In this document: positions 2,867 to 8,240 of the stretch, in pieces
How positions within the stretch are numbered: the first letter of the stretch is position 1
Layout of the letters: each line of letters begins with the position of its first letter
Assembly: GCA_031253795.1 (NCBI GenBank)
Contig: JAIRVR010000030.1
Coordinates: 1-64,000, forward strand
Reading direction: 5' to 3'
Length of the DNA: 64,000 bases
Source of the DNA: Burkholderiaceae bacterium
Lineage (GTDB): Bacteria > Pseudomonadota > Gammaproteobacteria > Burkholderiales > Burkholderiaceae_C
The notes under the pieces: model-generated
Seen by the model: the letters and a program-made list of their open reading frames with translations, nothing else
What the model was told of the DNA's origin: nothing
Database searches by the model: none
Made by a program: the position numbers and the translations under genes

Positions 2867-3988
2867 ATGAGCTTCGCCCCCCTGACCAACGACACCTTCC
2901 TGCGCGCCTGCCGGCGCCAGGCCACCGACTACACGCCGCTGTGGCTGATGCGCCAGGCGGGCCGCTATCTTCCCGAATACAAGGCCACGCGCGCCCGGGC
3001 CGGCAGCTTCATGGGCCTGGCCACCCATGTGGACTACGCCACCGAAGTCACGCTGCAGCCGCTGGAGCGTTTTCCGCTGGACGCGGCCATCCTGTTTTCC
3101 GACATCCTGACCGTGCCCGATGCCATGGGCCTGGGCCTGTCGTTTGCCGAAGGCGAAGGTCCGCGTTTTGCCAAGGTGGTGCGCGACGAGGCCGCCGTGG
3201 CCGCGCTGGCCGTGCCCGACATGGACCGGCTGCGCTATGTTTTCGACGCCGTGACCAGCATCCGGCGGGCCCTGGACGGCCGCGTTCCGCTGATCGGCTT
3301 TTCGGGCAGCCCCTGGACCCTGGCCTGCTACATGGTCGAAGGCAAGGGCAGCGATGACTACCGGCTGGTCAAGAGCCTGATGTATGCACGCCCCGACCTG
3401 ATGCACCGCATCCTGGCCATCAATGCCGACAGCGTGGCCGCCTATCTCAACGCCCAGATCGATGCCGGAGCCCAGGCCGTGATGGTGTTCGACAGCTGGG
3501 GCGGCGTGCTCGCCGATGGCGCCTTCCAGGAATTCAGCCTGGCCTATACTAGGCGCGTACTCGCCCGCCTCCGGCGCACGGGCCCTGATGGCCAGGATGT
3601 GCCGCGCATCGTCTTCACCAAGGGCGGTGGCATCTGGCTGCCCGACATGAAGGACCTGGACTGCGAAGTCCTGGGCCTGGACTGGACCGCCAACCTGGCC
3701 CACGCCCGCGCCATCGTCGGTGGCGAAGCGGGCGGCCCCGGCAAGGCCTTGCAGGGCAATATCGATCCCAATGTGCTGTTCGCCCCGCCCGAGCGCATTG
3801 CCGAGCAGGCCCGTGCCGTGCTGGACAGCTTCGGCAGGCCCCACACCGACAGGACCACCACGGGCCCCACCCACATCTTCAACCTGGGCCATGGCATCAG
3901 CCAATTCACGCCCCCCGAGCATGTGGCCGCCCTGGTGGAAACCGTGCACAGCCATTCGCGCGCCCAGCGCCAGAACCTGAAGGCCTGA
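2867..3988 (+). CDS. hemE: Uroporphyrinogen decarboxylase
   Basis: A 373-residue cytoplasmic enzyme that removes four carboxyl groups from uroporphyrinogen III to give coproporphyrinogen III in haem synthesis. Both family signatures are present: [12 protein letters not shown] near residues 27-38 and [16 protein letters not shown] near residues 144-159, with the C-terminal FNLGHGI turn near residue 340. Length is normal for the family. It is divergent from the Bug gene at 1707-2687 and followed by the long gap before priA. The stop codon lies in a short hairpin with arms TGACCTG/CAGGTCA (3986-4011), which lacks a T-run and so is only a weak terminator candidate. Confidence 0.98.
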
Positions 3989-4045
3989 CCTGCGTGGCGG
4001 GCGCCAGGTCAGGCGTCCCCACAAATTCGCCCCAGAGATTTCGAA

Positions 4046-4065
4046 TACTGTATTTATTCACAGTA
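4046..4065. promoter_or_regulatory. LexA-like SOS box overlapping the first DnaA box
   Basis: The 20-bp TACTGTATTTATTCACAGTA fits the gamma/beta-proteobacterial LexA pattern CTG-N10-CAG, with perfect 6-bp arms and an AT-rich centre. It contains the DnaA box at 4054-4062. No SOS gene begins close by on either strand; priA starts about 660 bp downstream. Confidence 0.5.
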
Positions 4066-4567
4066 TCCGCAAAGCACCAGCGCCTGGATCGCAGAGCGCC
4101 ACACTGCGGACGACGGTGCTGCCAAGTCCTTGATGCAGCAAGAAAATCTACGCCAGCCTGGGTGAACGGGTCCGGCTTCGGACAAGCTGTCCCACGCCCT
4201 TCCCGCTGCTGCCAGCGTGTTTTGCGCACAAAGTTATCCACAGCGTTCGACGCCAGCGGCCCATTGACCGGCCTCGCCATGGCGTTTTGATGGCTGCAGG
4301 CCGTTTCCAGGCCGAAAAACGTCGGATGGCGGCTTGAGACAAGGCGTTTACCCCAAAGGGCAGCAGCATCTTATGCACAGAACAACCGCAGCGAATGTCG
4401 CCCGTCCCCGTGCAAAAAACGCATTGCAACATCGGTGTCATATACATATAAGCCATTGTTTTGCATGAATATTTTCAACAGAAAAACAAGGCACTGCCGC
4501 TGAACCACGCCGTCAGACTGACAGCATGCAGCGATAGAGCCGGATAATCCCCACAAAGTTATCCACA
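4046..4567 (+). other. DnaA-box cluster in the hemE-priA gap (oriC-like or DnaA-titrating region)
   Basis: The 734-bp stretch between hemE and priA has no convincing gene. It holds four sites matching TTATNCACA exactly, all on the plus strand: TTATTCACA at 4054-4062, TTATCCACA at 4234-4242, TTATGCACA at 4371-4379 and TTATCCACA at 4559-4567. Between the last two lies a visibly AT-rich stretch (about 4430-4490) that could serve as an unwinding element. Boxes of this quality are DnaA-binding sites in all well-studied bacteria. Whether this is the chromosomal origin, a datA/DARS-like DnaA sink, or a control region for priA cannot be told from the sequence. Confidence 0.6.
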
Positions 4568-4722
4568 GAAATTAACGATCTACTCAGAAACCCGCATCAC
4601 CGGCCTGTCGGTTCGGGTGTACAAGCCGGGCCGGCACCTTTGCCACCGCCCGGACATGAAGCGCTTATGCTTGGCGGCCTGACCGCCCCGCATGCCCTTG
4701 GGGCAGCACCCGTTCCTTCCGC

Positions 4723-8240
<3,518 letters not shown>

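Follow-up and report, generated by a model that had tools for sequence, protein, structure and literature searches.

Introduction

The closest described counterpart of the element reported here is datA of Escherichia coli, which lies 10 centisomes from oriC at a relative distance that is conserved, according to the available part of its description (PMC4585315). Its essential components, as given in the accessible sections of two further articles, are DnaA boxes 2, 3 and 7 and one IHF site, all in the same direction, where box 7 is a two-mismatch box adjoining box 2 (PMC5742627, PMC5835720). In the MG1655 sequence, datA reads box 2 TTATCCACA, 71 bp, IHF site, 91 bp, box 3 TTATTCACA, and we take the two-mismatch sequence located 12 bp before box 2 to be box 7.

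Two other groups of loci are relevant. DnaA-box clusters outside oriC restrain initiation in Bacillus subtilis and Streptomyces and have been named datA analogues (PMC10950094); they likewise consist of non-origin DnaA boxes, and the portion of that article available mentions no IHF-centred module. The reactivating sites DARS1 and DARS2 of E. coli map ~33 and ~21 centisomes from oriC, as far as the map positions given in the source extend (PMC4585315). From the sections at hand, one review describes DARS-like sequences as conserved in many proteobacteria (PMC10380432) and another describes the DARS2 spacing as conserved in beta- or gamma-proteobacteria (PMC5742627), contrary to a third source, which restricts the DARS2 core to E. 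coli-related gamma-proteobacteria (PMC4245941). In the literature searched, where 'datA' is indistinguishable from 'data' and an earlier report is possible, we found no description of datA in betaproteobacteria or of DnaA boxes between hemE and priA.

Results

Four DnaA boxes form two tandem modules between hemE and priA

The window, by which we mean the whole 64-kb stretch analysed, is contig C7 of a fragmented genome that is 59% complete. An earlier note on this DNA had described four exact TTATNCACA boxes between hemE and priA, all on the plus strand at intervals of 180, 137 and 188 bp, with an AT-rich segment between the last two, and had considered such a cluster improbable by chance. Our analysis confirmed this description: the boxes start at 4054, 4234, 4371 and 4559 with exactly these intervals, the segment between the last two has a GC content of 48.6%, Pfam matches identify both flanking genes, and 64-kb shuffles contained a mean of 0.26 boxes, with at least four in 0 of 100. 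The closest named matches listed for priA include Delftia tsuruhatensis (83%) and Comamonas.

An exact-match scan located no other TTATNCACA site in the window, for a total of four, and when the 734-bp gap alone was shuffled 20,000 times, 19,710 shuffles had no box, 290 had one and none had more. The gap is also less GC-rich than the window (57.5% vs 69.0%). It has no one-mismatch TTATNCACA site beyond the four boxes, and a few one-mismatch sites to the wider consensus TTWTNCACA. By their sequence, the four boxes are arranged as two tandem modules, each made of a box, an IHF-like site and a second box, with the following features.

2867..3988, plus strand: hemE (uroporphyrinogen decarboxylase), upstream neighbour; Pfam PF01208, E 1.9e-128
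4054..4062, plus strand: module 1, left DnaA box TTATTCACA, exact; 75 bp to the IHF-like centre
4123..4135, minus strand: module 1, IHF-like site CAAGTCCTTGATG, reverse form of WATCAANNNNTTR with 1 mismatch
4222..4230, plus strand: module 1, candidate weak DnaA box TTGCGCACA, 2 mismatches; 12 bp upstream of the right box
4234..4242, plus strand: module 1, right DnaA box TTATCCACA, exact; 105 bp from the IHF-like centre
4371..4379, plus strand: module 2, left DnaA box TTATGCACA, exact
4449..4461, minus strand: module 2, IHF-like site TAAGCCATTGTTT, 1 mismatch; 84 bp to the left box and 104 bp to the right box
4547..4555, plus strand: module 2, candidate weak DnaA box ATCCCCACA, 3 mismatches (weak evidence); 12 bp upstream of the right box
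4559..4567, plus strand: module 2, right DnaA box TTATCCACA, exact
4723..6882, plus strand: priA (primosomal helicase), downstream neighbour; Pfam PriA_3primeBD, PriA_C, DEAD, Zn_ribbon_PriA

Relative to the boxes, the IHF-like site of module 1 points the same way as that of E. coli datA, and the IHF-like site of module 2 is conserved in position and orientation in relatives. The 50-bp GC minimum, at 24%, falls at 4440-4489, over and beside the IHF-like site of module 2. No Rfam family was found in 3900-4800. Open reading frames of 98-124 aa overlap the gap in the ORF listing; a gap-encoded protein is not favoured, because in modules of 188 bp only the boxes, the IHF site and the bases beside the right box stand out.

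The module is conserved with strict geometry

Among 80 named loci, the best 80 of 585 matches listed, hemE and priA stand in this order in 76; the other four (L026, L047, L057 and L074) have no hemE on the locus and are omitted from the gap counts. The 76 gaps contain 151 perfect boxes on the plus strand and one on the minus strand, compared with about one in total in shuffles. At least one plus-strand box is present in 70 of them, and 50 have a pair 160-205 bp apart ending in TTATCCACA, which shuffles never produced; the full pair is missing from the remaining 26, which counts against a datA-type reading. Within the genus, the spaced pair was matched in 40 of 41 genomes (controls, 0), and reading the matches against priA positions placed it at priA in 39. 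The two exceptions are G011, with a pair only near dinG, and G033 (75% complete), with none at all. In six genus genomes, among them G011, the pair occurs at an additional or another place, near dinG in five and elsewhere in G010. The element recurs between hemE and priA in many Burkholderiales and Rhodocyclales.

We next defined a module set as box pairs 150-205 bp apart that end in TTATCCACA. This gave 94 modules in 82 of the 110 loci L008-L117, or 92 after identical sequences were dropped; a double box makes L068 count twice, and the window is included as L088. Of the 92 distinct modules, 80 contain an IHF-type site with no more than one mismatch, against 19% in shuffles. In these 80 modules the best site has a single orientation in 76, and its centre lies 101-105 bp from the right box in 77. 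The distance from the left box to the IHF centre, by comparison, falls into steps: 62-64 bp (3 modules), 71-75 bp (20), 81-85 bp (44) and 94 bp (11), with two others. Steps of ~10 bp suggest that the same face of the helix is preserved, an indication only, as the species are related. The periodicity at 10.5 bp amounts to R = 0.88 over modules and 0.64 over distinct values, equal or higher values being reached at 10.75-11 bp, and since the species are related R is not to be read as a significance test.

Pairwise comparison of 29 distinct 188-bp modules gave 87% identity in the boxes and IHF site and 38% in the remainder. The right box is often preceded by a same-direction partner at -12, with at most one mismatch in 35 of 91 distinct right arms and at most two in 71; the overlapping -14 offset reaches 6 and 25 arms, respectively, and all other offsets at most 1 and 6. 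Doubling of the module, as in the window, was also found in ten relatives' loci (L011, L013, L015, L016, L041, L065, L101, L105, L106 and L109) and in genomes G196 and G216. In Comamonas testosteroni (L009), the gap has a single perfect pair of 188 bp and one additional box. One genome, G282, contains three full box-IHF-box modules (contigs C2 and C12), two of them 26 kb apart.

Comparison with E. coli datA

Both window modules share with datA a pair of strong boxes in the same direction, one on each side of a single IHF site whose orientation also agrees, the predicted sites in the window having one mismatch each. In datA and in hemE-priA modules of relatives, a weaker box of the same direction stands 12 bp ahead of one of the strong boxes, and the window copies have candidates for it. 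This partner, reminiscent of box 7, is kept at -12 of the right box in relatives and has two and three mismatches in the window copies. The differences are equally clear. Spacings are 71 and 91 bp in datA vs 75/84 and 105/104 bp in the window, so that the right spacing is about one helical turn longer here. Strong boxes are mostly TTATGCACA...TTATCCACA here vs TTATCCACA...TTATTCACA in datA, and the weak partner precedes the right box, whereas in E. coli and in all five places found in family f19 it precedes the left box (1-2 mismatches). The window genome has two tandem copies, unlike datA, and they lie at hemE-priA rather than at glyVXY-queG, where datA is found; what we propose is therefore a kind of element and not orthology of the locus. 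A gene for IHF-alpha was found in six of seven genomes searched and not in the 59%-complete source genome.

To place these observations in a wider context, we searched 397 Pseudomonadota genomes for a motif of box, IHF site and box, with the reversed pattern as control. The motif, which E. coli datA matches, occurred at 41 places in 37 genomes (controls, 0). These comprise 23 of 39 Burkholderiales and 14 others of the same class, with none marked 'same phylum'; matches are also limited within families, to 5 of 18 f19 and 6 of 20 f16 genomes. The source genome itself is not matched, because its IHF-like sites carry one mismatch. In Burkholderiales, 23 of 25 places lie between hemE and priA. All five f19 places lie beside queG, the datA locus, and f19 is taken as enterobacterial because its QueG is 77-88% identical to that of E. 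coli. The remaining 11 places are at other loci. In family f16, taken as Pseudomonas-like, the module was seen beside an RdgC-like gene (L249, L250) and an FKBP-like gene (L251), names that come from reading the proteins.

In relatives, the element lies near, but not at, the probable origin

The earlier note had offered the chromosomal origin itself as one reading, with a GC-skew minimum expected at hemE-priA. As the source genome is too broken for this analysis, we used relatives: eight near-complete genomes of the main branch (G001, G002, G004, G019, G027, G029, G032 and G037), with 20-80 kb sampled at 4-kb resolution. In all eight, the skew changes from negative to positive just behind a dinG-like helicase gene, at a DnaA-box cluster that lies 18-53 kb from dnaA and not at dnaA. 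Local skew deviations occur before the flip in G019 (8-20 kb), G032 (8-12 kb) and G004 (8-12 kb). The other three of the 11 near-complete relatives, the side-branch genomes G014, G018 and G031, have a skew too noisy to decide. These three each contain a dense cluster of ~14-16 boxes in 2-2.5 kb, 96-177 kb from dinG (L368 in G014, L354 in G018, L365 in G031).

Coarse skew minima also fall near dnaA and away from priA. In G023, which is among the closest relatives (6.13 Mb, one contig, 40 sampled stretches), the cumulative skew has a flat minimum from about -130 to +35 kb of dnaA, with single stretches deviating (positive at -82 kb), and priA is found at +556 kb. The sign change of G002 falls between -156 and +20 kb of dnaA, and priA is ~334 kb away. 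With the flip located at a different DnaA-box cluster in 8 of 11 relatives and undecided in three, the four boxes are very probably not the start of chromosome replication. Of the two signs that the earlier note had said would together speak against it, a skew minimum elsewhere was thus observed in relatives, while loss of the boxes from related gaps was not, the boxes being strongly conserved. In the source genome, a DnaA-box cluster lies between the dinG-like helicase gene (L002, 2990-5170) and pagL at ~5171-6752 of contig C56, with boxes at 6106, 6225, 6253 and 6682; it is likely the chromosomal origin.

We then measured the distance from the skew-change cluster to the module, entering origin coordinates by hand from the box clusters and, for G023, where skew does not resolve the cluster, taking it from box positions. 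Across nine relatives with chromosomes of 3.8-6.1 Mb, the distance is 301-514 kb, or 6.96-8.57% of the chromosome (mean 7.83, sd 0.57), and it rises with genome size (r 0.88, n 9, related genomes). The three side-branch genomes have the element 682-744 kb, or 13.2-14.3%, from their box cluster. In these nine and three relatives the position is thus origin-proximal, as is that of datA. A further 15 Burkholderiales have dnaA on the same contig as the module or priA; in 14 of them dnaA is 23-511 kb away, for example 23-25 kb in G181, G213, G276 and G365, 149 kb in G278 and 511 kb in G059, and in G258 the separation along the contig is 2.33 Mb. Unlike datA, the element of the Pseudomonas-like G206 (f16) is ~1.64 Mb from dnaA in a 5.42-Mb genome, ~30%.

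Discussion

Our data point to the gap between hemE and priA as two tandem copies of a datA-type element that would inactivate and titrate DnaA, a reading to which we assign a probability of roughly 0.55. The secondary DnaA sink proposed in the earlier note came closest to the evidence, but the element appears more specific than a sink, being a box-IHF-box module like that of E. coli datA. In such a module, IHF would bend the DNA sharply so that DnaA molecules on the two boxes meet head to tail, and the resulting assembly would titrate DnaA and promote hydrolysis of DnaA-bound ATP, as at E. coli datA. This might take effect once the origin-proximal locus has been duplicated, such that re-initiation would be damped.

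Several alternatives have to be weighed against this reading. That the four boxes are the replication origin is extremely improbable given the skew data above, even though an origin would also be expected to show a box cluster with an AT-rich stretch, such as the 50 bp at 24% GC from 4440. A passive sink, in which the boxes merely titrate DnaA and IHF and looping play no part, is quite unlikely: titration does need strong boxes near the origin, and datA itself also titrates DnaA, according to the available text of PMC5835720, but titration needs neither a single strand, nor a fixed 101-105 bp to the IHF site, nor left-box steps of ~10 bp. A promoter of priA controlled by DnaA and IHF, or a regulatory region of the hemE end, coupling primosome supply to initiation, is unlikely, although it has the stable location in its favour: in Burkholderiales and Rhodocyclales the element keeps its place between the two genes, with its last box near the priA start. 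In a survey of 25 genomes, whose upstream flanks span ~0.8-1.5 kb so that a farther hemE or box could be missed, a box pair precedes priA in 8 of 12 genomes with adjacent hemE vs 1 of 13 without hemE in the flank (G224); an IHF-type site (at most one mismatch) accompanies six of these eight pairs, and G306 and G308 have none within two mismatches. The same survey argues against promoter control, as no perfect box precedes priA in 11 of the 13 genomes in which hemE is not adjacent. Moreover, modules of this geometry are also found at places other than priA, in f19, f16 and f23 genomes, in G153 and in G344, which has a module elsewhere and none at priA; one genome of the Burkholderiales is among these cases. 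The distance from the last box to priA varies from 31 to 285 bp. A search for sigma-70-like promoters in the gap returned none, against 0.4 in shuffles, which is weak evidence. The DnaA-controlled priA promoter of the earlier note therefore looks weak, and conserved gene order, rather than control of priA, seems the likelier reason for the placement between hemE and priA.

A more serious, if still doubtful, alternative is a DARS-type or dual element, whose right arm would be a DnaA-reactivating core (weak box at -12, strong box, inverted box at +14) that recharges DnaA with the help of IHF, or does either. Viewed on the other strand and compared by eye, E. coli DARS1 and DARS2 have just this order, with a weak box at -12, a strong box and an inverted box after a 5-bp spacer, and the right arm of some relatives matches it: an inverted partner with at most one mismatch is found, at +14 only, in 15 of 91 distinct right arms (27 with at most two), and eight f16 places (L249-L256) and both f23 places (L247, L248) have the +14 box with 0-1 mismatch. 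The wide conservation that two of the reviews cited above ascribe to DARS-like sequences and DARS2 spacing would agree with this. A DARS-like core is present in some relatives, so the switch could work in either direction, and the 15 arms with the inverted box make an opposite effect possible. Both window copies, by contrast, lack the inverted +14 box (6 and 5 mismatches) and so do not have convergent strong boxes 5 bp apart, and on comparison E. coli DARS2 was rejected as a plain match for them. Unlike DARS, the window modules have a strong box beyond the IHF-like site, and in relatives the element lies nearer the origin than the map positions of DARS1 and DARS2; DARS2 has no comparable same-direction box in this place, the next being ~220 bp away (judged by consensus matches, not published sites). 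The f19 motif places, too, are at queG only. Finally, candidate DARS-core-like sites with at most two mismatches occur elsewhere in 15 of 41 genus genomes, although none was found in the source genome. Such sites are nearly identical in five related genomes (L320, L321, L322, L324 and L328), inside a long open frame in three of them, and could be a DnaA-reactivating site of the genus.

From the absence of the inverted box in the window copies, we favour datA-type action in this organism with moderate confidence. A broader and speculative possibility, which we regard as doubtful, is that the hemE-priA element belongs to an ancestral kind of DnaA switch, widespread among beta- and gamma-proteobacteria, which combined a datA-type loop and a DARS core in one module and could both discharge and recharge DnaA under IHF control; in E. 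coli the two halves would have come apart as datA and DARS2, while the organism of the window would have kept and doubled the datA half.

Within the available parts of the literature searched, DnaA/IHF control sites outside the origin have been worked out in E. coli. The element described here is kept at a single locus across Burkholderiales and Rhodocyclales; its geometry is strict and, in nine relatives, its relative distance from the probable origin hardly varies. The skew flip locates this probable origin of the group. The spacing classes lend themselves to a natural test of helical phasing, and, if the datA-type reading is true, inactivation of DnaA by looped DNA would be a more general mechanism.
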